Origin: Candidatus Bathyarchaeota archaeon
GTDB lineage: Archaea; Thermoproteota; Bathyarchaeia; Bathyarchaeales; Bathycorpusculaceae
Assembly (NCBI GenBank): GCA_023488905.1
Contig: JAMDCQ010000003.1
Coordinates: 1 to 64,000, forward strand
DNA length: 64,000 bases
Direction: 5' to 3'
A program made the position numbers and the translations under genes. Shown in pieces: positions 8,385-57,340 of the stretch. Under the pieces are notes generated by a model. That model did no database searches. It saw only the letters and a list, made by a program, of their open reading frames with translations, and was not told the origin of the DNA. How positions within the stretch are numbered: the first letter of the stretch is position 1; every line of letters starts with the position of its first letter.

Positions 8385-8860
8385 AGCGCTTTCTTCTATA
8401 GTAGTTGTTGCCGTGACCCCTTCTTGTTTCAACAACAACCCGCGGCGTTTGTGGGCGGCTGTGTTTTGGGGTCGGCTGGCTTAGGCGGCTGCTGGCTGGT
8501 TGTGGCTGATTCCGCAAGCAGAGCGGGTCAGTGGTTGGCAAGCGTTTGTTGCTCTACCAGACCCCCCTCCCCTTATAAAAAGGCAAATCGGTTTCTCTCT
8601 TTATGTGGGTGTTTTGGTTTACGGCACACCACATGTCTGCTTGAGGATGGCGTTGCTTTTTGGGGGCGGGCTGTATTTTGGCGTCTGTTTGGGTGTGGCA
8701 GCGGCGGTTTTGTTCACAAGAATACATGGAAACGCATGATTATGCGTGTGGCGCTATGTTGCGATTGGTTTTTTCTCCACAAGAATCAACGAACAGCAGT
8801 GAAAGCAATTGAACAGCACAATGCAATCGCGCACCAGCATGGCCCCATTCGGCAATTTCG
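8385..8860. repeat. Long composite copy of dispersed repeat family (two modules)
   Basis: tagttgttgccg...caacaacaacc...cgcaagcag then ctctttatgtgggtgttttggtttacggcacaccaca...cacaagaatcaacgaacagcag; parallels 37785-38240. Confidence 0.75.
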
Positions 8861-30107: not shown

Positions 30108-30174
30108 GAAAGGGACATTAGTTACTTTGTCTCAAAAAGTCAATTTTTCCTTTCAAGCACTATTGAAAGTGCGG

Positions 30175-30345
30175 TTCATCGATTTTCAGCGGTTCTTGTG
30201 GAGGAAATCGCTTATGCCACACCGAAACAGACGCCGAATCCCGTTGCAACCACAGAAAACAGCCGCATCCAGTTGCGGTCGTGTGGTGTGCCGTAAACCA
30301 AAACACCCACATAAAGAGACAAAACAGTCTCTGGCTGTTGCCGAA
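30175..30345. repeat. Partial copy of dispersed repeat family
   Basis: gccacaccgaaacagacgccgaa...gtcgtgtggtgtgccgtaaaccaaaacacccacataaagag. Confidence 0.75.
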
Positions 30346-33080: not shown

Positions 33081-33361
33081 AACAGCCGATCAAAAATTTG
33101 TTTGTCTTCTGGCTGTGTTGCGCTGTTCATTGCTATTCTTGTGGAGAAAAAAGGAGTCGATACATGGTTTCACATTCGCATGGTGGCGGTTTCAACATGC
33201 TTCTATGTTGAGCGTGTGAAGAAAAACCCATATGCCACACCGAAACAGAAGCCGAAACACAGCCCGAACCCAAAACGCAAACGCATCTAGTCGCCGTCGT
33301 GTGGTGTGCCGTAAACCAAAACACCCACATAAAGAGCACAACAAAATTTTGATCTACTGTT
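33081..33361. repeat. MITE-like repeat copy with terminal inverted repeats
   Basis: Ends aacagccgatcaaaaatttgtt ... aacaaaattttgatctactgtt; internal similarity to 45002-45279. Confidence 0.8.
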
Positions 33362-36887: not shown

Positions 36888-36989
36888 TTTTTTGCACTGA
36901 ATTGGCCGTTTTTTGAAGCGGCGAAGTGTTTCTGGCGTATGGCTTCTTGATGCAAAAGACTTATATCTCTATATCGCTGATTAAAGCAT

Positions 36990-37157
36990 ATGTCAAAAGC
37001 GAATAGGCAGACACAAGAAACCCAGCACCAAGAAATATTCGTTATAAGCAGCAGCGTCGACGCCGAAGCCGCACCTATCAAAATTTGCTGGAATACCGGT
37101 GAAGAAAAGAACTGCCATGCGTGTTATTTGAGTAAGGGTTGTAAAGCTCGTTCTTAA
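36990..37157 (+). CDS. Cys-rich microprotein (55 aa), not in ORF track
   Basis: MSKANRQTQETQHQEIFVISSSVDAEAAPIKICWNTGEEKNCHACYLSKGCKARS; four Cys; TATA-like ttatatctctatat upstream. Confidence 0.5.
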   Translation: MSKANRQTQETQHQEIFVISSSVDAEAAPIKICWNTGEEKNCHACYLSKGCKARS

Positions 37158-37745: not shown

Positions 37746-37784
37746 CCAGTTCTGCGTTTTTCTCGGCTGATTGGGATCTGTTTT

Positions 37785-38240
37785 TTTGGATGTAGTTGTT
37801 GCCGAAAACCCCCTATACACAACAACAACCAACGGGCTTTGCTGGCGGCTGTGTTTTGGCGTCTGCGTCGGGGGTGGGTTTCAGGTTGGTTGTGGCGTTA
37901 ACCGCAAGCAGTTCAGCTTGGCAAGCGCGGTTGGCGTGGAACAGCCGAGTTTGCTGCTCTCTGTGGGCCCCTATAAAAAGGCGAATCGGGTTGTCTCTTT
38001 ATGTGGCTGTGGAGGTTTACGGCACACCACACGACTGCAACTGAGAGCGGCTGCGTTTTGGGTTTGCAACGTGTTTCGGCTTCTGTTTCGGTGTGGCATA
38101 TGCGATTTCCTTCACACGGGATACATGGTTCCATGTTGAAGGCAACTGGATGTGGATGTGGGGGCATGTTGAGACCGTTTTTGTATTCACAAGAATCATT
38201 GAGCAGCAATGAACAGCGCAATGCAGTCGGGCACTAGCAT
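37785..38240. repeat. Long composite copy of dispersed repeat family
   Basis: Same two-module order as 8385-8860. Confidence 0.75.
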
Positions 38241-44004: not shown

Positions 44005-44976
44005 ATGACAACTCAAGAATGGAAATTCACAGCCAAAGACATCGCAGCAAAACCCGACCTATTCCTGTCAGGCCATCGTGCATGTGCAGGATGCGCACCT
44101 GTATCAGTGCTTAGATTAGTCATGAAAGCCACCCGCGGACCCACAATCGTAACCCAAGCAACCGGTTGCATGGAAATCGTCGGCTCAATCTACCCCTACA
44201 CATCTTGGGCTCTACCCTGGCTCCACACTGCCTTTGAGAACGCCGCTGCAAACGCTTCCGGCATCGACGCAGCCATAAAAATCATGCGCAAAAAAGGCAA
44301 AATCAAAGATGAGTATGTCGATGTCATCGCCATAGCAGGCGATGGTGGAACCCTCGACATCGGTCTACAAGCCCTCTCAGGCGCAGTTGAACGTGGTCAC
44401 GACTTTCTTTTTGTCCTCTATGACAACGAAGGATACATGAACACTGGCATACAGCGAAGCAGCTCCACACCCATTGGTGCATCCACTACAACCAGTCCAG
44501 CAGGCTCAGTAATCCCGGGTAAACTGGAAAAGAAAAAGCCCATCACTGAAATCATGCTTGCACACGAAATGGAATACGTCGCCACCGCTACGCCTTACTA
44601 CTGGAAAGACCTCATTACCAAAGTTCGCAAAGGCTTAGAAGTTGAAGGACCCGCTTTCCTTCATGTATTCGCGCCATGCCCAAGAGGCTGGAGAAGTGAC
44701 CCCGCAAAATCCATGGAATACTCCAAACTCTCAGTCGAAACCTGTGTGTTCCCAATCTGGGAGGCAGTCAACGGCAAACGCCAACTATCTACACCCAGCA
44801 AAGTCATCTCTTTAGCGCCACAGAAAAAGAAGCCAGTTAAAGCTTACCTCGAAGGACAAGGCAGATTCCGTCACCTCTTCACACCACAGAACGCACATAT
44901 CATCGAAGAGATTCAGCGCTCAACTGATGAACGCTGGGAAAAGCTACTCCAGAAATGCGCTTCAGGCGCAACCTAA
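44005..44976 (+). CDS. porB: 2-oxoacid:ferredoxin oxidoreductase beta subunit
   Basis: SGHRACAGCAPVSVLRLVMKA ... AIAGDGGTLDIGLQALSGAVERGHDFLFVLYDNEGYMNTGIQRS. Confidence 0.92.
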   Translation: MTTQEWKFTAKDIAAKPDLFLSGHRACAGCAPVSVLRLVMKATRGPTIVTQATGCMEIVGSIYPYTSWALPWLHTAFENAAANASGIDAAIKIMRKKGKIKDEYVDVIAIAGDGGTLDIGLQALSGAVERGHDFLFVLYDNEGYMNTGIQRSSSTPIGASTTTSPAGSVIPGKLEKKKPITEIMLAHEMEYVATATPYYWKDLITKVRKGLEVEGPAFLHVFAPCPRGWRSDPAKSMEYSKLSVETCVFPIWEAVNGKRQLSTPSKVISLAPQKKKPVKAYLEGQGRFRHLFTPQNAHIIEEIQRSTDERWEKLLQKCASGAT

Positions 44977-45001
44977 ACTTTTCTTTTTTGTTTTAATTAA
45001 A

Positions 45002-45279
45002 CGGTAGATCAAAAAAATCTTGTTTGTGTACTTGTTGTTTTTTGTGCTGTTGATTTTTGTGGAGAAAAATACAGTCGATACGTGCTTTCACATTCGCATG
45101 GTGGTGGTTTCAACATGCTTCTATGTTGGGCGTGTGGAGAAAACCTCACAGCCCACACCGAAACAGACGATGAGAAACAGCCTGAACCCAAAACGCAAAC
45201 GCACCCAGTTGCCGTCGTGTGGTGTGCCGTAAACCAAAACACCCACATAAAGAGCCAAAACAAAAAATTTGATCTACTG
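45002..45279 (+). repeat. MITE-like element, copy 1 of 278-bp inverted pair
   Basis: cggtagatcaaaaaaatcttg ... caaaaaatttgatctactg; reverse complement of 48444-48721. Confidence 0.92.
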
Positions 45280-45332
45280 CAAAATAAAGTGTTGATTTTT
45301 TTAATTTAAGGTTGAGTCAGCCACGCGTAGGT

Positions 45333-46001
45333 TTACTGGGTGGAGACAGAGATAACGATGTTCATGCTGAAGTCAGTTAAATCGCCGGTGTCTGCAGCTA
45401 CCTTTAACGTCAGGATTGCGGCTACCATTGCGCCTGCTGCAATTGTGCTACCTTGTTTGTTCCATGTTAGGGTTAATTTGTCGCTTGCATCTGTGGGAGT
45501 CCATGATGATGCAGTCATGCTCAAAGTTGCTGCCGTGTTGCCTGTGTTTTTTATGTAGATCGTTTTTGTTGCTTCATCACCTGGGTGGAGGGTTCCCCAA
45601 ATTATATTATCGCAGGTTGTTATTGCGTTCCCGTCTTCGTATATGGCGAGGTTTAGGGTGCTCGTTATGGTATTCTGTTGGTTATTGCTGTCAGTTTGGC
45701 TGTGGCTGTTTTGGTTGTTTCCGTTGGTTGTGGGACTTGGTGTTGCGTTAATGGTGATGTTTTGGTTGCTTTGGTTGTTTGTGCCGGTTACGGTGTTTTG
45801 TTGGTCATTGGTTTCGGTGTTGTTTGGATCAGTGTTATCTTGGCTGGTTGGTCCGTTGATTGTTTTGGCGGGCGGGATGTAATTTGGGGTGGTGGGTTGG
45901 GTGCTGAGCACTGCTGCTGTTACGGCGGTTAAGGTTATTGCGACTGTGAGTAGTGCCGCCAGTGGTATTATGAGTGGTTTGTTGATTGGCAATCTATTCA
46001 C
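45333..46001 (-). CDS. Secreted/anchored protein with N/T/Q-rich linker and TasA/camelysin-like C-terminal beta domain
   Basis: N-terminal hydrophobic segment; QNTVTGTNNQSNQNITINA low complexity; TLHPGDEATKTIYIKNTGNTAATLSM. Confidence 0.6.
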   Translation of the reverse strand: MNRLPINKPLIIPLAALLTVAITLTAVTAAVLSTQPTTPNYIPPAKTINGPTSQDNTDPNNTETNDQQNTVTGTNNQSNQNITINATPSPTTNGNNQNSHSQTDSNNQQNTITSTLNLAIYEDGNAITTCDNIIWGTLHPGDEATKTIYIKNTGNTAATLSMTASSWTPTDASDKLTLTWNKQGSTIAAGAMVAAILTLKVAADTGDLTDFSMNIVISVSTQ

Positions 46002-46132
46002 AGAAACATCTGTGTATATTACATCTTAATAAACAATATAGATGGCGCTTACTAACACACCAAACTGTTCAACAACCATACAAAATATGGAGCCAACTAC
46101 AAATAGCCCAAAACCTTTACTTGGCATACATT

Positions 46133-46813
46133 TTACTCTTCTTTCGACAAATCCAAAGCCAACACACTATAAACCGCGTCAGCAATCACCTGTGCCCCCT
46201 CAACCTTAGGATGCACGCCATCACCAAAATAATCCGGATGATCTAGAAGCGGCGTGTAGGCATCAACCAACGACACCCCAGTCACGTTTGCGACCTCGCT
46301 AATACTTGGAATAATCATTTGGGTGAGCAGGGTTCCGTTGAGATTTGCGTCGTTTTCGAATATCGGCGGCGGCAGCACAATGTACACTTTTGGTTTGCTT
46401 GACAGCGATTGGAACTCGCTTAGCAAACTGAGGTAGTCCGATATGAATTGCTCTTTGGATATGTTTAGGTCGTTGTCTGCATCGTTTGTTCCAAGCATAA
46501 CAACCACGATGTCTGGCTGGAACTGCTTGGCAAGCTCAAACGCCGTCGTGTTCATGTATGCACTCTCTGATTTGAGCGAAACCGTGACCCCGCCGACGCC
46601 AAAATCGCTTATCACATAGTTGGAGCCCAACTTTTCCCATAGGTAAAGCGTGTATTCGGTGCCTCTGGTTATGCTGTCGCCCACACAAGCGACGCGCACA
46701 GGGCTTTGAGGCGTCTGCTCGTTTGTGATGGCGGCAAGCATAACTGCCTCCAAGCTTGCTGCAACTAGCAACACTGTAACGGCAAGCGCCAGCAGCTTCA
46801 CGGTGCGATTCAT
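46133..46813 (-). CDS. SGNH/GDSL hydrolase, secreted
   Basis: VACVGDSITRGTEYTLYLWEKL, VVVMLGTNDADND, GDGVHPKVEGAQVIADAV. Confidence 0.88.
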   Translation of the reverse strand: MNRTVKLLALAVTVLLVAASLEAVMLAAITNEQTPQSPVRVACVGDSITRGTEYTLYLWEKLGSNYVISDFGVGGVTVSLKSESAYMNTTAFELAKQFQPDIVVVMLGTNDADNDLNISKEQFISDYLSLLSEFQSLSSKPKVYIVLPPPIFENDANLNGTLLTQMIIPSISEVANVTGVSLVDAYTPLLDHPDYFGDGVHPKVEGAQVIADAVYSVLALDLSKEE

Positions 46814-47036
46814 GCCTGCATGTTACTCTTATTCTGCTTTTAAACATTAAATCTAAAGCTGAAATTGCTGTTTGGATGAATCAGCCCGCTTTCTTGGTCA
46901 ATATGTTAATATCTTTCAACATAACTTTAAGCTGTAAACGCAACGCTAAGCACATTTCTGTTTAGCACCCTAAAGTTGGATATTCAACCAATTCTGGAAA
47001 AAAAATAACGTTGAAAATAATTCGGAAGAAAGAAAC

Positions 47037-48293
47037 TTGAAAATCGAAGTTCACGGTGGAGCCAGAGAAGTAGGCGGCTCATGCATAGCAGTTGAAACCG
47101 ACTCATGCAAGGTTGCCCTAGATTACGGTACAAAACTTGAGTCAGAGATGAAAAAACTGCCCAAGGACTTTGACGCTGTAGTCATCAGCCACGCACACTT
47201 AGACCACACTGGAAGTCTGCTTAGGTTATGCAAAAACAACAACCCCACTATCGTGGGTGCAGACATCACTCGAGATGTAACCGTTGACCTTCTCCATGAC
47301 ATGGTTAAAATCCAAAGCGAAAAAGGCAACTTAGAGTTTAACGACAGCCACGCCGAGAATGTTTCGGCATGTTGGTGGAGCCGAGACTCCGTTGCCTTGC
47401 CGGGGCTGAGCATCCAGCTTCAACCTGCGGGCCACGTTGCAGGCGCCAAAATAACAACCGTTCAAGCGGAAGGAAAAAAAATCGTCTACACAGGCGACTT
47501 CTGCGTCCACGACACCGAGATCTTGCAGGGCTTGCGGCTGGAGACGCTTCCCAAAAAACCCGACGTACTAATCACTGAGTCAACCTACGGCGGAAAAGTC
47601 AGGCCCCCCCGAAAAGAACTCGTCAAACAATTCATAGCTCAAATGGAGTTAACCATGGACAGGGGTGGAAACGTGCTGATACCCACTTTTGCTTTTCACA
47701 GAAGCCAAGAGATGGCAAAAAGAATCGACACCGCCATACAAAACGGCATCCTCCCAAAATACCACGTCTACACAATCTCAAACCTCGCCCAAAGAATAAA
47801 TGGCTACTTCAACTACCACAAGCAACTCTTCACCAAAGAAATCAAAGCGCAAAAGCACCCTTTCAACTACCGCCACGTAAAGCACCTCTACCGCACTTCG
47901 CAGATTGAATCGCCAGCCGTCGTCATCTGCACCTCAGGCTTTGGCCACGCAGGCGCAAGCCTAAGACTGTTACAGGAGTGGTGTGAAGACAAAGACAACG
48001 CGGTGATTCTGACTTCCGGTTACCTTCCGCCCGACAGCCCCTTGAAAACCGCAAAAGAAGAAGGTTTCTTCAAGACAAATGATGAAACGTATGATGTTAA
48101 GGCGGAAGTTAAGCAGATTGAGCTTTCAGGTCACGCTGACCAGACTGAGCTTGTAAATATTGTTAGTAAGGTGAAGCCGAAGCGTACGGTTTTGGTTCAT
48201 GGGGATTTGGAGCAGGCTGAGTTGTTGGCGGAGAAGATCGGGGAAATGACGGATGTTTGCATACCCCAACAGGGCGAAGTAATAGACGTCTAA
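47037..48293 (+). CDS. MBL-fold beta-CASP ribonuclease (RNase J/CPSF-like)
   Basis: HAHLDHTGSLLRL, YTGDFCVHDTEIL, ESTYGG, ELSGHADQTELVNIV. Confidence 0.85.
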   Translation: MKIEVHGGAREVGGSCIAVETDSCKVALDYGTKLESEMKKLPKDFDAVVISHAHLDHTGSLLRLCKNNNPTIVGADITRDVTVDLLHDMVKIQSEKGNLEFNDSHAENVSACWWSRDSVALPGLSIQLQPAGHVAGAKITTVQAEGKKIVYTGDFCVHDTEILQGLRLETLPKKPDVLITESTYGGKVRPPRKELVKQFIAQMELTMDRGGNVLIPTFAFHRSQEMAKRIDTAIQNGILPKYHVYTISNLAQRINGYFNYHKQLFTKEIKAQKHPFNYRHVKHLYRTSQIESPAVVICTSGFGHAGASLRLLQEWCEDKDNAVILTSGYLPPDSPLKTAKEEGFFKTNDETYDVKAEVKQIELSGHADQTELVNIVSKVKPKRTVLVHGDLEQAELLAEKIGEMTDVCIPQQGEVIDV

Positions 48294-48443
48294 GCAAGGT
48301 TCTTTAGGGTATCCAGAAATCGGTTTTCTCCCAAAATTCAGACCATCATCCAAGAAAAAAATGATTTTGTCTTTAGGGGATAGGTCTATAGCAAAGCAAC
48401 AAAACCCGTTAAAACCCGCATACGGTTTCGTATCCACCTTTAT

Positions 48444-48721
48444 CAGTAGATCAAATTTTTTGTTTTGGCTCTTTATGTGGGTGTTTTGGTTTACGGCACA
48501 CCACACGACGGCAACTGGGTGCGTTTGCGTTTTGGGTTCAGGCTGTTTCTCATCGTCTGTTTCGGTGTGGGCTGTGAGGTTTTCTCCACACGCCCAACAT
48601 AGAAGCATGTTGAAACCACCACCATGCGAATGTGAAAGCACGTATCGACTGTATTTTTCTCCACAAAAATCAACAGCACAAAAAACAACAAGTACACAAA
48701 CAAGATTTTTTTGATCTACCG
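48444..48721 (-). repeat. MITE-like element, copy 2 of 278-bp inverted pair, inserted in another repeat module
   Basis: Reverse complement of 45002-45279; flanks gcatacggtttcgtat...gggggtctagt resemble the 1140-1265 module split in two. Confidence 0.9.
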
Positions 48722-48775
48722 TTAAAAGGTGGGGGTCTAGTCACGGCAGAGCAGTGTTTGTGTATCAAGATAAAT

Positions 48776-49822
48776 ATGGCGCGTAACGGTGTCAATAGCA
48801 GAAAAACCATGCCGAACCCAAGCGCGGAAGCCATCTGGAACCTCAACGACGCCCAACTCAAAGCGCTGCTCGATTCAGGCAGCCTCAAACCCCAAAGCGG
48901 CGGCGTCCGCTTTTACGCGCCCAGCTTTACCTACTACAAAACCAAACACTACAGCTCCACAACCGCAGAGTTCCCCACGATTTCAGTCACAGGCAACAGT
49001 TGCGCACTGAACTGCAAACACTGCGGCGGCAAAGTGCTCGAAACCATGCATCCCGCGTTGAGTGCGGAGCAACTTTGGCAGACTGGTTTGGCGCTTAAGG
49101 CGAAAGGCGCGAAGGGTGTTTTGGTCAGCGGCGGATGCTTGCCTGATGGTTCTGTACCCCTTGAAGGTTTTGCTGATGCGCTTTTTCGGTTTAAACATGA
49201 GTTGGCGTTAACAGTTTTTGTCCACACCGCCATAACCTCACCGCAGACTGCGGCTGCACTGAAGAAGGCAGATGTGGACGCTGCGTTGATTGATGTCATC
49301 GGCTCCGACCAAACCATAAAAAAAGTCCTCAACCTCAACGTAACCGCCCAAGACTACGCCCAATCCCTCCGAGCCCTCGCAAACGCAGACCTAAACGTCG
49401 TTCCCCACGTCATCGTCGGCTTAAACGACGGCGTACTCGACGGCGAACTCCAAGCCCTCCAAACCATCAACCAAACCGTCAAACCCTCCGCAGTGGTCAT
49501 CATCGCGTTTATGCCCCTCTACGGTACACAAATGCAGAAAACGCCGCCGCCCCGACCGCTCGACATCGCCAAAGTCGCTGCCGCCGCACGCCTCATGTTC
49601 CCAAAGACGCCGCTTGCGCTGGGTTGCATGCGACCTAAAGGCAAACTCCGCGGCCAAACCGACCTGCTCGCGCTCAAAGCGGGTGTGGACGCAGTTGCCT
49701 TTCCAAGCGAAGAAGCAGTTGAATACGCCCAAAAAATGGGGTGCAAAACGGTTTTTTCGTCTTATTGTTGCGCTCAGATGTTTCTGGATTTGGATGGTAA
49801 AGGGTTGAACCAAAGCTTTTAA
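48776..49822 (+). CDS. Biotin synthase-like/LipS-like radical SAM protein (COG1856-type)
   Basis: ISVTGNSCALNCKHCGGKVLETM (CxxxCxxC); start set at ATG 48776 because the upstream part of the ORF lies in the repeat. Confidence 0.7.
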   Translation: MARNGVNSRKTMPNPSAEAIWNLNDAQLKALLDSGSLKPQSGGVRFYAPSFTYYKTKHYSSTTAEFPTISVTGNSCALNCKHCGGKVLETMHPALSAEQLWQTGLALKAKGAKGVLVSGGCLPDGSVPLEGFADALFRFKHELALTVFVHTAITSPQTAAALKKADVDAALIDVIGSDQTIKKVLNLNVTAQDYAQSLRALANADLNVVPHVIVGLNDGVLDGELQALQTINQTVKPSAVVIIAFMPLYGTQMQKTPPPRPLDIAKVAAAARLMFPKTPLALGCMRPKGKLRGQTDLLALKAGVDAVAFPSEEAVEYAQKMGCKTVFSSYCCAQMFLDLDGKGLNQSF

Positions 49823-50685: not shown

Positions 50686-51828
50686 TTAAGAATTTGCGCT
50701 CTCAGGCACAAACCGCCGTAGATTCTGTAGGGAACGCAGCTTGTCTTTTTCGCCTATTTTAGCTTCTTCAACCGACTTTTTGAGGATTTCTATGGATTCA
50801 TCCATCGCCTTGCGGTCCACGGGGAACGGAACGCCGTCTTTGCCGCCGTATGCAAAGCTGAATTTGACGGGGTCTTCCCAACTTGGCTCCTCCCCATAAA
50901 CCAATTCGGCAACAAGCGCCAATCCGCGAACAGTTGCGGGTCCCACACCTTTAACGCTTAAGAATTCCTCATAGTTGCAGGGCTGGAACTCGTAGAGGCG
51001 GCTGAGTGTGTCCCAGTTGATGTTACGAGGCATGTTCAGCGTTATCTGTGTTTGTAACCATGGGTCGTCGGATTTGGGGAGCCACGTTTGGAGTGAAGCT
51101 TGGTTTTGGGGTTTGCTGGCGGATTGGATGAGACGCATTAGCTTCTTTGGGGGTTCCTTTGCCAAATCAACTGAGGCTTGGCGTGCTTCTTGGCTGGCGC
51201 GTGCAACCATGTTGAGAGCTTTTTCCCGCTTTACGTTGCAGGCTATAGCTTGGTGTGGCTCAACCACAAAATCATGCGTGTGCTCTGAGAGCCAATGGTA
51301 GCGGCGAGCGCTGTGGTCTTGGTCACTCATCCCCTGCTGAATAACCGCCCACTTGCCCTCTCTGGTGACAAGCAAAGCGTGGTGATAGAGCTGGTAGCCG
51401 TCTTGGACTGCGGTGTTGTCAACTTTAGCGGTCATGCGGCTGGTGTAGGTTAGGTCGTCTATTGTTTCCTGCGGGAAGCCCCATTTTTCGCCGACATTTT
51501 GTATGTCGCTGGGTGTTTTGCGGCTTGTTTTCCCTTTTCCACCGCAGACTGCAATACCATGTTCCTGCGGCGACAGCGCAGTTTTGAGGACGCCTGTCAC
51601 GACAGTTGTTACACCGCTACTATGCCAGTCATAAGCGAGAACGCAGCCTAGCGCTTGAAACCAATAAGGGTCACTGAGGCGAGCGATGAATTTGGCGGTG
51701 CCGTACTCGTCGATCATGACGTGGGCTATTTCGCGGGCTAAACCGCGCGTACGCCCAGTGAGCCAAGAAGGAGCCTTGCCACCATGCAAGGGTAAAGTTG
51801 CAATACCAGACCGAAACATATCCATCAC
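50686..51828 (-). CDS. DUF763 family protein
   Basis: RSGIATLPLHGGKAPSWLTGRTRGLAREIAHVMIDEYGTAKFIARLSDPYWFQALGCVLAYDWHSSG. Confidence 0.85.
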   Translation of the reverse strand: MMDMFRSGIATLPLHGGKAPSWLTGRTRGLAREIAHVMIDEYGTAKFIARLSDPYWFQALGCVLAYDWHSSGVTTVVTGVLKTALSPQEHGIAVCGGKGKTSRKTPSDIQNVGEKWGFPQETIDDLTYTSRMTAKVDNTAVQDGYQLYHHALLVTREGKWAVIQQGMSDQDHSARRYHWLSEHTHDFVVEPHQAIACNVKREKALNMVARASQEARQASVDLAKEPPKKLMRLIQSASKPQNQASLQTWLPKSDDPWLQTQITLNMPRNINWDTLSRLYEFQPCNYEEFLSVKGVGPATVRGLALVAELVYGEEPSWEDPVKFSFAYGGKDGVPFPVDRKAMDESIEILKKSVEEAKIGEKDKLRSLQNLRRFVPESANS

Positions 51829-52008
51829 GATTGGATGGGAAAAGTCTGGATTTATGGATTATTGCAACCAACCCCTCAAAAATAAGCAATCAAATTTCTG
51901 TACCTCCAAGAATTTACAGGATATTTAGGGCGAAAGTAAGCATTGTAAATAAAAGAAAAAGGTGCTTCTGAGGCAACGTAGCTTTTATTAAGGCAACAGC
52001 ACCTTAAC

Positions 52009-53085
52009 ATGCCAAACAAGGTGCCAAAAATCATGCCCAAAATCCGAGTAGCTCTAATCGGCGTGGGAAACTGCGCCTCATCATTCATCCAAGGCATCCA
52101 GTACTATTCTAGCGCTTCAAAGCCAGAAGACAACCTTGGATTACGCAACCCAACACTTGCAGGATTATTACCTAAAGACATTGAAGTCGTCGCGGCATTC
52201 GACGTTGACGCCCGCAAAGTCGGCTTAGACCTCGCGGAAGCAATTTTCGCTAAACCAAACAACGCGCCAAAAGTCTGCGACGTACCCAAACTAAGCGTCA
52301 AAGTAGCGAAAGGACCGCTTTTAGACGGCGTCGGCGAATCAACAAAAGCACTCGTAGAAGTCAGCGCCGAAGCTGATGCTAACGTTGCACAAATCCTCAT
52401 ATCCGCGCACGCAGAAATCGTAATTAACTTACTTCCAAGCGGCGCATCCAACGCCACACGATTCTACGCAATGCAAGCCATCGCAGCGGGATGCGCATTC
52501 ATCAACGCAACACCCAACTTCGTCGCCAGCGAACCCTCAATCGCAGCGCAGTTTGAAGACGCGGAACTACCTCTTGTAGGCGACGACTTAGTTGACCAAA
52601 TCGGCTCAACCGCACTCCACAAAACCCTGCTCAAGCTGCTCAGCGAAAGCGGCGTCCACATAAACGAAACCTACCAACTCGACGTTGGCGGCGGCACAGA
52701 ATCCGTCGACACCATGGACCGCACCCGCGATACAAAACGCATCATAAAAACTCAATCCGTTGCTTCTGCGCTGCCTTACGAAACCCAAGTCGTTGCAGGC
52801 TCAACTGACTACGTCGATTTCCTACAGAACAAACGTGACAGTTACTTCTGGATAAGCGGCACATACTTCTGCAACACACCACTAAAAATCGACCTTAAAT
52901 TCCAAACAACCGACGCACCAAACGCAGGTTCAGTCCTATTCGACGTTGTCCGCGCAGTCAAGGTGGCGTTGACTAAAAAGCAGGGTGGAGCGCTTGAAGC
53001 GGTTTGTGCTTATGGATTTAAGCGTCCGCCCAAGATGCTCCCTCTTGAAGTTGCCGAGGCAGAATTCAAAAAATTCGTGGCTTAA
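52009..53085 (+). CDS. ino1: myo-inositol-1-phosphate synthase
   Basis: IRVALIGVGNCASSFIQGIQYY, DDLVDQIGSTALHKTLLKLLSESGVHINETYQLDVGGGTE. Confidence 0.9.
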   Translation: MPNKVPKIMPKIRVALIGVGNCASSFIQGIQYYSSASKPEDNLGLRNPTLAGLLPKDIEVVAAFDVDARKVGLDLAEAIFAKPNNAPKVCDVPKLSVKVAKGPLLDGVGESTKALVEVSAEADANVAQILISAHAEIVINLLPSGASNATRFYAMQAIAAGCAFINATPNFVASEPSIAAQFEDAELPLVGDDLVDQIGSTALHKTLLKLLSESGVHINETYQLDVGGGTESVDTMDRTRDTKRIIKTQSVASALPYETQVVAGSTDYVDFLQNKRDSYFWISGTYFCNTPLKIDLKFQTTDAPNAGSVLFDVVRAVKVALTKKQGGALEAVCAYGFKRPPKMLPLEVAEAEFKKFVA

Positions 53086-53146
53086 CCTCATTTTTCCTTT
53101 TCTTTTGTTATCTTAAAAAACAGTTGCCCAAAAAAAAGGTGGCTGT

Positions 53147-54262
53147 CTACACTTTTTCCAGTTGACGGATGACTTCGTCTCTAACCCCGTTTTCCTTCAA
53201 CTTGTTTTTAAGTAAATCAATTGTTCTAACAGGCGTTGGGTCAGCTTTACGTTCAACAGCCAGATAGACACTCAAGAAGTCGCCTACAACCACGGTGGAC
53301 AGCATCTTGGAAAGACAACTTTTTCCCTGCACATGCAAGTCGAAGGTGACGATGCCTGCGCTTTCGATTATGGCTTTTGTGATGTCGATGCGGCTTTCAA
53401 TTTCGCCTGGTTCATCTGCGTCACGTATGAAGATGATGCTGAACCATTTGCACTGTTCGCCTTTGCCTGACCACCCAACTATTTCGTTGTGATCTAGCTC
53501 AGGGAAGTATTCCCATTTGGCGGGGGATTTGCTGTTCTCGTTAAATTGCTGCTTAAACCTCTGCGCCACGCTACGATAGAAACCAAAACCATAGACAACT
53601 GGGGCTGAGTTCCAAAGGAAATGCGCCGTGTTCTTAGCAAAGTTGTCGTTTTGCGGTCTCTCTGGACCATTTTCCTCAACAACCTTCTCCAAAACCGCAA
53701 AGGTTTCTTCCAATTCCTCTGATACGCCCTTAACTAATCCTGCTTTTTCCATGTAAACCAGCAGGGGAATCAGCATATAGGGCAACGCAGCACGCGGGGG
53801 CATTCCGCCGGGAACCTGCAGATAGGGCACTTTGTGTTTTTTTGCGGCTTTAATCAATTTGCCGCCGCTACTGACACAGAAAACCATGCAGCCGCGTTTT
53901 AAGGCATCCAGAAACGCGCTTAAGGACTCTTCAGTGTCGCCCGAGTAGCTTGAAACCACCACAAGGGTTTTTTGGTCAGCGTATTGGGGCAGGTTGTATT
54001 CTCGGTTGACTTCTATGGGTACAGTGAGCTTGTTTCTTGCCCAGTCCTTGAAGAGGTCGCCGCCGATTGCGGAGCCGCCCATGCCAACTATGATAATGTT
54101 GTCTGGGACAGAGTAGCTTGCCTTGATTTTCTGAGCTATCTTTGCAGCTTCGCGGTAATGCTGCGGCGCGTTGATGCAGAAATCTATCATGCCGCTTTTG
54201 TCTACCGCACGGATTTTTTCTATGTCATCTAAAAGGGGCTTATTCAAGTCTGTGTCCTCCAA
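53147..54262 (-). CDS. Bifunctional phosphoglucose/phosphomannose isomerase
   Basis: IIVGMGGSAIGGDLFKDWA, SYSGDTEESLSAFLDALKRGC, ELDHNEIVGW. Confidence 0.9.
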   Translation of the reverse strand: MEDTDLNKPLLDDIEKIRAVDKSGMIDFCINAPQHYREAAKIAQKIKASYSVPDNIIIVGMGGSAIGGDLFKDWARNKLTVPIEVNREYNLPQYADQKTLVVVSSYSGDTEESLSAFLDALKRGCMVFCVSSGGKLIKAAKKHKVPYLQVPGGMPPRAALPYMLIPLLVYMEKAGLVKGVSEELEETFAVLEKVVEENGPERPQNDNFAKNTAHFLWNSAPVVYGFGFYRSVAQRFKQQFNENSKSPAKWEYFPELDHNEIVGWSGKGEQCKWFSIIFIRDADEPGEIESRIDITKAIIESAGIVTFDLHVQGKSCLSKMLSTVVVGDFLSVYLAVERKADPTPVRTIDLLKNKLKENGVRDEVIRQLEKV

Positions 54263-54336
54263 TAACCCGCAGTTTTATATCTTCATCCCGCCTTTTAAGC
54301 TCAGCGCAGACAAGTAAGCATCAAGGAAAAAGAAAC

Positions 54337-55191
54337 ATGACTAAAAAGAAGCTCTCAATCGCCATTCCAGCGTCAGTGATTTCAGACACTCCGCATTTGC
54401 GGGAGAAAACCTCAAAAATCGGTTTGATTGCGCGGTCAGCCGCGATTTTCAGAGTGGACGAAATCATCGTTTACCCCGACAACACCAGAGTCAACCAGCA
54501 AAAAGACCTCGAATTTATCGCATTACTGTTGAATTATTTGGAAACTCCCCAATATTTGCGCAAAGCCCTCTTCAAACTCGACCCCGACTTACAATACGCA
54601 GGGATTCTGCCGCCGCTTCGTACGCCACACCATCCAGTCAGCGGCAAAACCAAGCACCTAAAAGTCGGCGAATACCGCGAAGGCTTAGTGCTCCAAGAGC
54701 GCAAAGACGGTTTAGCGGTGGATATCGGGGTGCAGCAGCCCGCGCTTCTGCGGCAACGGCAATTCCGAATGGGGGAACGCTTGACAGCGCAGGTGGTTAA
54801 TGTCGGCGAAGTAGTGGAGGTTCAGCCAGTTAGCCGCGAGGATGTGCCTCTTTATTGGGGTTATTCGGTTAGGGCGGAGAAGCGGTCTTTTGGGCAATTA
54901 TCCAAAGACAACCGCTTCAACCTTCGGATTGCAACTGCCCGCATAGGAGACAATTTTGTGGATGTAGCAACCAAAATCGGTGAACAATGGAGTGGCAGTG
55001 ACCGAGTTTTGGTCGGGTTCGGTGCACCTTCACGGGGACTCCACGAAATCGTTGAAGATGAGGGCTTAAAGCTCCCTGACTTAGCTGAATTTGTGGTGAA
55101 TACTGTTCCTAATCAGGGCACGGCAACGGTTCGCACTGAAGAAGCGCTTTTGGCGACGCTGGCAGTCCTCAACACCTACTTCCCGTATTAG
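54337..55191 (+). CDS. SPOUT-type putative RNA uridine N3-methyltransferase (DUF171-like)
   Basis: LSIAIPASVISDTPHLREKTSKIGLIARSAAIFRVDEIIVYPD; GFGAPSRGLHEIVEDEG. Confidence 0.85.
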   Translation: MTKKKLSIAIPASVISDTPHLREKTSKIGLIARSAAIFRVDEIIVYPDNTRVNQQKDLEFIALLLNYLETPQYLRKALFKLDPDLQYAGILPPLRTPHHPVSGKTKHLKVGEYREGLVLQERKDGLAVDIGVQQPALLRQRQFRMGERLTAQVVNVGEVVEVQPVSREDVPLYWGYSVRAEKRSFGQLSKDNRFNLRIATARIGDNFVDVATKIGEQWSGSDRVLVGFGAPSRGLHEIVEDEGLKLPDLAEFVVNTVPNQGTATVRTEEALLATLAVLNTYFPY

Positions 55192-55226
55192 TTTCCTCGC
55201 TTTACCTTATTTTGGTAAATGCATAA

Positions 55227-56390
55227 ATGCTTCCGTCTGTTAATTTTGAGGCTATGCCCAACTTAGACCTCGCCATGCCCACTGCCCTTCTAATCGTGGT
55301 CACCGTCGCCTTGTTCCTAAACAGGCGCGTCGAAGGTAAACTGATATCTACTGTTGAAGAGAAAGAATTCAAAACCCGCGACGTCATCTTGCTGGTCGTT
55401 TTCATCGCCATCATGATCTCGGTCATAGCTTATACGTCCATAATCAACCCTGGCGGAGTTTTCCAAAACGTCCTGCTAATCCTGTTCCTGTCCTCTTACA
55501 CCATGTTGCTGTTCACGTTCTCCTACATATTCACCAACCTCACAAGAGCACGCGCACAGCTGCTTTCGATAGGTTTTGGCACCGCAAGCTTAGCTGCGGG
55601 GTTAGCCAGCCTTTTGAGCCAACTCGCAGATGCATACACCATTTATCGGGCTGCTGCCTTCATCGGGTTAGCCGTGTTCTGTTTTGGTGTTGCAGCATAC
55701 GAGCGCTTCAGCGTGAGCGTCAAAAAGGGAAAATGGTACATTGCCGCGCAGCCGCCTGCAATTTTCTTGCTGCTGTTTGTTTTCTTTAATTTCCTCTACG
55801 AGGGCACGGTTGCGCTTTGGTTCCCCTTCTTGATGGATTTGTTCGGTTTCACGTTTGCGATTTTGATTATTCTGTATTTGTCTTCGATGTTTAATTGGAA
55901 AACAGTCGGCTTATTCGCGGTCCTCTTAACTATGCTGGATATAATCTTGGTCATCGGAACTGGCACCATGGTAACCGCCGCCAAACAATTCACTGGGCTG
56001 GGCTTGCCAGTGTTGGTGTATCTGCCAAACGTGCCCTTCCTGTACTCAGCCGACGGCTTGCTGTTAAACCGCGGTTTGGGATTAGGTGACTTTTTCTTCG
56101 CTGGCATCTTAGCCGTGCAAACGTACAAGAAATTTGGCAGAAACACCGCTTTAGCCTCAACCGTTGCTATGGCTGTGGCTTTCGGAGTCTGGGAAGCCTA
56201 CTTAGCAGACATCTTAACCTTGCTTAACCCAATTATGGGGCGAGAAATCGGCGGGTTCCCCGGCACTTTGATGATTATCAGCGGTTGGGCTCCAGTAGTT
56301 GCTTACAAGCTGCTCAAGGCGAAAAGTGAAAATAAAACCGTCGCTACAGCCATGGAGCCCACAGAGCCTGCGGTCACCCAGCCATTGTAG
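55227..56390 (+). CDS. Polytopic membrane protein of unknown function
   Basis: 387 aa, many hydrophobic segments. Confidence 0.7.
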   Translation: MLPSVNFEAMPNLDLAMPTALLIVVTVALFLNRRVEGKLISTVEEKEFKTRDVILLVVFIAIMISVIAYTSIINPGGVFQNVLLILFLSSYTMLLFTFSYIFTNLTRARAQLLSIGFGTASLAAGLASLLSQLADAYTIYRAAAFIGLAVFCFGVAAYERFSVSVKKGKWYIAAQPPAIFLLLFVFFNFLYEGTVALWFPFLMDLFGFTFAILIILYLSSMFNWKTVGLFAVLLTMLDIILVIGTGTMVTAAKQFTGLGLPVLVYLPNVPFLYSADGLLLNRGLGLGDFFFAGILAVQTYKKFGRNTALASTVAMAVAFGVWEAYLADILTLLNPIMGREIGGFPGTLMIISGWAPVVAYKLLKAKSENKTVATAMEPTEPAVTQPL

Positions 56391-56467
56391 AGCAAAACAA
56401 CTATTTTTTATAATTCAACGAGTAAAAGATTTTGGGAAAAATTGGTTAAAAATAAGAGTGAGGCGGT

Positions 56468-56788
56468 TTACCCGAATAGGGCGCCTAATCCTTCTAGTGC
56501 TGCTTCTTCTTTGGCTTTTTCTTCTTCAGCTTTCTTCTTCTTGTCTTCTGGTGCGGCTGCTGCTGGTTTAGATTCGCCTGCTGGAGCTGCGACTGGCGCG
56601 GCTGCCATCATGGTTGGAGCTGCTTTGATTGCTTCGTCGATGTTTACTTCGCTGAGTGAAGCTACGAGTGCTTTAACTTGGACTGCATCAACTGTTAAGC
56701 CTGCTGCTTCGAGTACTTTTGTTACTGAAGCTTCGTCGATTGGTTTTCCTGCCTTGTGAAGGAGCATTGCTGCGTAAATGTTTTCCAT
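56468..56788 (-). CDS. rpl12: Large ribosomal subunit protein P1 (archaeal L12)
   Basis: MENIYAAMLLHKAGKPIDEASVTKVLEAAG ... EDKKKKAEEEKAKEEAALEGLGALFG. Confidence 0.95.
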   Translation of the reverse strand: MENIYAAMLLHKAGKPIDEASVTKVLEAAGLTVDAVQVKALVASLSEVNIDEAIKAAPTMMAAAPVAAPAGESKPAAAAPEDKKKKAEEEKAKEEAALEGLGALFG

Positions 56789-57094: not shown

Positions 57095-57340
57095 CCCCTT
57101 ATTTAAAGGCGCATACGAAACCGTATGCGGACAAGCAGAAACCACGCGACCTCTCAGCCGCTACCTCCCCTCCCTTATCAGTAGATCAAAAATTAATCTT
57201 GGAAGTTGCAGGGGACCCCTCTTGTTTCAACAACAACCAACGCATTATGCAGAATGTTGTGTTTTGGCTGCCGCTTTTGTGCATAGTTGCAGCTGGTTGA
57301 GGGTCGATTTCGCAAGCAGTTCGAATCCCAAAGAGTCCAC
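57095..57340. repeat. Composite dispersed repeat copy
   Basis: ctagacccccttatttaaaggcgcatacgaaaccgtatgcgg...agccgctacctcccctcccttatcagtagatcaaaaatt...cttgtttcaacaacaacc...cgcaagcagttcg. Confidence 0.75.

Follow-up and report, generated by a model that had tools for sequence, protein, structure and literature searches.

What are the two identical arms that lie in inverted orientation around a short segment of this archaeal chromosome, and do they turn around the genes between them? We analysed a 64,000-nucleotide stretch of DNA (the window) from a relative of Ca. Bathycorpusculum, whose PorB has its best named relatives in Bathycorpusculum and other Bathyarchaeota MAGs. A sequence-only reading had described 278-bp inverted repeats at 45002-45279 and 48444-48721. 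Base-by-base comparison bore out their identity and extended the match slightly: 45000-45279 is the exact reverse complement of 48444-48723 (280 bp, 0 mismatches), the first mismatches beyond copy 1 lying at 44999 and 45280. Chance does not account for such a match. A repeat search of 43-51 kb returned a single inverted pair (44997-45284 / 48439-48726, 99%) with 3154 bp in between. The 278-bp limits coincide with the outer edges of two terminal inverted repeats: each arm is an element in its own right, bounded by inverted ends, from a dispersed family of ~40 copies. Each is very probably a type A MITE copy, moved in trans most likely by a resident ISH3-like insertion sequence (IS) into WTAW-type sites.

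45002..45279, + strand: left-arm MITE (copy 1) of type A, 278 bp (identity to copy 2, family search)
48444..48721, − strand: right-arm MITE (copy 2) of type A, 278 bp (reverse complement of copy 1)

Intact copies of the family end in CAGTAGATCAAA(A) inverted repeats of 12-13 bp, (W)CAGTAGATCAAAA. With at most one mismatch allowed, CAGTAGATCAAAA has 76 matches in the genome versus 1 for the reversed control. The same search places the terminal inverted repeats of both arms:

45002..45014, + strand: terminal inverted repeat, copy 1 left end
45267..45279, − strand: terminal inverted repeat, copy 1 right end
48444..48456, + strand: terminal inverted repeat, copy 2 left end
48709..48721, − strand: terminal inverted repeat, copy 2 right end

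Copy 1 ends in CGGTAGATCAAAA and ATTTGATCTACTG. Its flanking 4-mers are TAAA and CAAA, and those of copy 2, in element orientation, are TTAA and ATAA, an imperfect duplication in each case. In a programmatic survey of the stretches of the host genome examined, the same 4-mer stood on both flanks of 11 of 35 terminal-repeat pairs, against 5.0 expected from shuffled flanks (p=0.001); no pair had flanks identical at 3 or 5 bp. As a family, the copies tend to show a 4-bp target duplication (WTAW), a trend that is not exact at either arm. Most flanks have TA inside them, so the insertion site appears to be WTAW-like. The flanks of copy 2, CCACCTTTAT and TTAAAAGGTGG, read as two halves of a single site, and CCACCTTTA...TAAAAGGTGG, together with the repeats beyond, reads as one interrupted site around the right arm. 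Because both halves of one site surround it, the right arm has probably undergone no lasting flank exchange since insertion.

On both sides of the right arm (48333-48443 and 48722-48760) lies another repeat, TATAAGGGGAGGGG...GTCTATGGCAGAGCAACAA, accompanied in some cases by a GCATACGG..CCGTATGC hairpin. This repeat lies beside many other copies too, as a frequent insertion place of MITEs, and leaves traces in the closest relative, G011.

Inside its ends, each arm contains a conserved core:

45050..45266, + strand: conserved non-coding core (module A), copy 1 (51-copy alignment, no 3-base periodicity)
48457..48673, − strand: conserved non-coding core (module A), copy 2 (profile search of DNA)

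We wondered whether this repeat could be a gene present in many copies, for a structured RNA or a small protein, and not a transposable element. Module A has three near-invariant TTGTGG...CCACA units, and one forward frame is stop-free in 32 of the 51 copies. In a second interior, module B, hairpin pairing is kept through two-sided changes at 3 of 6 pairs, and TATA-like stretches lie upstream of longer forms that join A and B. The open frame through the arm even has a Cys/His-rich look, but across the 51 module A copies entropy is independent of codon position, which ruled out a protein-coding arm. An RNA structure for module A was also rejected: the consensus has only 14 pairs, 2 of them with double changes, folding z-scores are weak, and three Rfam searches gave no match to the repeat. 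The terminal repeats shared with an insertion sequence and the 4-bp duplication trend argue further against a gene of either kind, which we regard as very improbable. The arms instead look like MITEs, being short (278 bp), non-coding and without a transposase gene, with terminal inverted repeats, a multi-copy and mostly intergenic spread, and ends in common with an autonomous element.

The ~40 places related to the arm, found by searching the host genome (1.79 Mb, 23 contigs), have 72–84% identity to it. A profile search of the DNA stretches examined added the copy at 8585-8789; its 41 own-genome places are in the alignment or duplicate one of its rows. Placement is mostly intergenic, 18 of 19 copies lying outside long ORFs and the exception being an over-extended start. 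The same ends also enclose module B in a second short family, mostly 163-184 bp long. About half of the module A copies are without terminal repeats, and module A thus exists outside the MITE form too; longer forms in the window (8.4-8.8 and 37.8-38.2 kb) also have modules A and B side by side, again with no terminal repeats. Besides the arms, the window contains:

8391..8531, − strand: module B copy adjoining the module A copy at 8585
8585..8789, − strand: module A copy without terminal repeats, in a longer A+B form (profile search)
30115..30330, + strand: module A copy that lacks terminal repeats and lies at a synteny breakpoint relative to G011
33083..33359, + strand: complete type A copy, flanks TTAA/TTAA, the sole collinear-site copy versus G011 in the gene-pair test
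37782..37921, − strand: module B copy adjoining the module A copy at 37983
37983..38199, − strand: module A copy that lacks terminal repeats, belongs to a longer A+B form and lies at a breakpoint
57179..57191, + strand: lone terminal repeat CAGTAGATCAAAA, next to a module B copy
57189..57329, − strand: module B copy with one terminal repeat only, a decayed short MITE without module A

In a tree of module A, twelve copies from another genome, G007, form one group (100/98), and own-genome copies with and without ends are intermixed. The family has thus probably grown independently in each species, with repeated loss or exchange of its ends. G011 is nearly free of the elements, with one weak A and five weak B in 789 kb. 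Exact-pattern scans with the core gave no match in public genome and viral collections, from which records near the host genome were perhaps left out.

The median identity among own-genome copies is 70.5%, that of the arm pair 100%; the nearest relative of the pair, the copy at 33.1 kb, is 85% identical. Two further pairs are unusually similar, each inverted on one contig: one on C23 (96.7%, 31.6 kb apart) and one on C7 (84.3%, ~2 kb apart). These three pairs, which are few, suggest local copying or gene conversion. Since identity spans the arms from element end to element end, they probably go back to a recent event of transposition or gene conversion that produced one from the other.

Where would the transposase come from? 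An insertion sequence on the host's contig C22 (38857-39969, 1113 bp) has perfect ends, the same as those of the MITE, and flanks TTAT/TTAT. Its intact 347-aa ORF carries a PF01609 DDE domain and finds its best family in the ISH3 transposases (NF033541, E=4e-51); the score of 173.8 bits lies below the NCBI curated cut-off of 225, hence we call it ISH3-like only. The MITE and this insertion sequence have their ends in common and nothing else. A second IS end is truncated at the start of contig C6 (C6:114). The predicted helpers of the ~280-bp, non-coding type A elements with (W)CAGTAGATCAAAA ends are these resident insertion sequences, one of them intact, whose ISH3-like DDE transposase would act on the shared ends. 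An IS630/Tc1 helper with a TA site was also considered, since TA is near-constant in the flanks. It was ruled out: DDE_3 genes are absent from the host genome, a 4-bp duplication is the better fit, and the resident insertion sequence is ISH3-like.

Other genomes of the genus differ in their transposases. G002 (1.5 Mb) has 44 DDE_3 (IS630-type) matches and the host genome none. Among 32 genomes of the genus, relatives of the C22 transposase were found in G013 only, where a 57%-identical fragment lies ~130 bp from the same 13-mer terminal repeat. G009 carries 31 perfect CAGTAGATCAAAA sites, some ~177-180 bp apart and several at most 350 bp from contig starts; module A is not expanded in it, the C22 transposase finds no match, and another helper may be in use there.

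Comparable systems are known in other archaea. In Halobacterium, the MITE ISH2 is mobilised by the resident insertion sequence ISH8, and ISH elements have been linked to inversions (PMC10264941). The type A element is similarly short and non-coding, with ends that match a resident insertion sequence as the transposase source, but ISH8 belongs to another transposase family and ISH2 has a 10-bp duplication, versus an ISH3-like helper and ~4 bp here. The C22 insertion sequence itself resembles Halobacterium ISH3B/C/D (PMC10264941) in transposase family, by best NCBIfam match albeit below the cut-off, and in having a single ORF between inverted repeats; it differs in length (1113 versus ~1390-1400 bp) and in its duplication (4 bp, TTAT/TTAT, versus 5 bp). 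The Sulfolobus families SM1-SM4, with 25-44 copies per genome (review PMC10969869), are archaeal MITEs of similar copy number but come from an unrelated lineage; here, two MITE types use one set of ends and their interiors also occur end-free.

The question of inversion depends on the genes between and beside the arms, and on a small ORF some 8 kb to the left:

36953..37147, + strand: small ORF X, which adjoins the N/T-rich gene in G011 and lies here at the far end of an inferred 8-kb inversion
44005..44976, + strand: porB, last gene left of the left arm (94% identical to G011 C22:148305-149273)
45333..46001, − strand: N/T-rich secreted protein gene, between the arms (orthologue G011 C11:34139-34804)
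46133..46813, − strand: GDSL/SGNH hydrolase gene, between the arms (PF13472, E=1e-20; orthologue G011 C11:33346-34017)
47037..48293, + strand: beta-CASP RNase gene, between the arms (PF10996, PF07521; 95% identical in G011 C11:31887-33140)
48776..49822, + strand: LipS1-like radical SAM gene, first beyond the right arm (NF053742, 226.7 bits, cut-off 230; orthologue G011 C22:98963-99958)

The searched genes between and beside the arms contain no recombinase domains, and the N/T-rich protein has no Pfam match. The beta-CASP protein scores about equally with type VII Cas14 and aCPSF1 models (190.6 and 186.6 bits), both far below the cut-offs. ORF X has a Cys-rich end (NTGEEKNCHACYLSKGCKA); it is single in the own DNA searched and has two copies in G011 (L071 10902-11096 and 11475-11542).

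In G011, por adjoins gene 36471 on contig C22, and on C11 the beta-CASP–SGNH–N/T-rich block is followed by ORF X and then by genes 50686-55227. In the window, the orientation of the block (45347-48293) relative to genes 50686-56788 is the opposite of that in G011. For the beta-CASP gene and gene 52009, the G011 orientation is common to G015 and G028 and reversed in the host genome, which most likely is the one that changed there. If one ~36.9-45.0 kb (8-kb) inversion is undone, two adjacencies of G011 return, 36471|porB and X|N/T-rich gene; none of the third genomes examined has these neighbours to polarise it. The left arm is on one breakpoint of this inversion, and the other (36.89-36.95 kb) has no copy. 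The right arm is at a further breakpoint, beta-CASP|LipS1.

The sequence-only reading had proposed that recombination between the arms can invert the segment and reorient its genes, and had suggested comparing orientation in related genomes. The comparison did reveal a block reversed with respect to the downstream genes relative to three relatives, with the left arm on an inversion breakpoint. However, nothing indicates recombination between the arms themselves; the other end of the inversion is copy-free, and the right arm sits in its matched site. Moreover, the porB–block–LipS1 arrangement is in no relative examined, so the orientation comparison has no direct counterpart. A reversible switch, in which the 3.15-kb segment would alternate between its two orientations within the population through arm recombination, would fit the reversed block and the identical inverted arms, 278 bp being enough for homologous recombination in principle. 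Yet both G011 adjacencies return when a single inversion is undone with the segment oriented as assembled, no promoter-switch layout is apparent, as both arms lie between complete genes, and the surroundings are common to no relative. Such a switch through these two arms is not supported, and we consider it improbable.

Could the two MITEs and the three genes have moved together as one 3.7-kb unit? TIME-COMP elements are MITE pairs, inverted ones included, that bracket passenger genes; they are of Tn3 type and are reported to move the intervening DNA (PMC13367494). The arm pair likewise encloses passenger genes, the block has its orthologues on G011 C11 while both outer neighbours, porB and LipS1, are on G011 C22, and a ~2-kb segment on C7 also lies between inverted similar copies (84%) with displaced neighbours. 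The arm pair differs from the Tn3-type elements in that the unit as a whole is not flanked by a duplication (its outer 4-mers are TAAA on the left and TTAA on the right), and we therefore do not class it as a composite transposon. The right arm also occupies a single matched site of its own, and undoing the 8-kb inversion puts the block beside its G011 neighbour X with no need for transposition. Joint movement is thus unlikely.

The C7 segment (533-2909, between copies L030 and L055) is in one piece in G011 (C5:358104-359903), and its outer neighbour maps to G011 C22:96854-98288. The latter region adjoins the LipS1 gene that flanks the arm pair.

The identical 280-bp arms are not orientable by short reads, which limits what a short-read assembly says on orientation. 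If the genome is a short-read metagenome assembly, an assembly error might have added the second arm or misoriented the segment; this might be argued from repeats longer than typical short reads, and from a genome in 23 contigs, one of which starts at an IS-end copy (C6:114). The arms nevertheless have different unique flanks that make sense, with a matched site at the right arm, and the assembled orientation yields the double adjacency match to G011. The other copies differ by ~15% or more and are not confusable with the arm pair. An assembly artefact is highly improbable.

Type A MITE copies remain our reading of the arms, and the position of the left arm on an inversion breakpoint has counterparts at other copies. 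We compared 464 kb of the host genome with 789 kb of one relative, G011, and sorted pairs of neighbouring genes with orthologues into collinear and broken ones. With a type A copy in the gap, 8 were broken and 1 was collinear; with neither A nor B in it, 7 were broken and 83 collinear (Fisher p=3e-7). When only gaps of at least 250 bp were considered, 8 of 9 with a type A copy were broken versus 5 of 19 without (p=0.004). Mapping the flanks of every own copy examined to G011 gave 16 broken, 4 collinear and 20 uninformative cases, one of the 16 (L005) resting on weak matches. The window supplies most of the informative gaps, and the gene-pair and flank-mapping tests are thus not independent. 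Module B copies gave no informative pair in the gene-pair test. Type A copies are clearly concentrated at synteny breakpoints, far above other gaps. Elements and breakpoints may both gather in long neutral gaps, an effect that the 250-bp control reduces but does not remove.

In chromosome rearrangements, the 8-kb inversion with one end at the left arm among them, copies may have provided shared sequence or sites for the transposase to cut. A more speculative view, which we find doubtful, is that modules A and B, with their repeated TTGTGG...CCACA units and covarying hairpin, form a repeat system of greater age, each captured separately by IS ends. The shuffling of gene order in the genus would then be driven by the modules as favoured places of chromosome breakage and joining, and not by the transposase.

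Bathyarchaeia are abundant and known mostly from metagenomes. A limited search of the open-access literature found no paper on MITEs in the genus Ca. Bathycorpusculum. Taken together, these results place the arms in a new archaeal MITE family of known type with a notable association to breakpoints. They also warn against trusting, in short-read genomes, the orientation of genes that lie between identical copies. With a helper identified and a strong excess at breakpoints, a MITE family would offer a concrete explanation of the scrambled gene order among the relatives of Ca. Bathycorpusculum.
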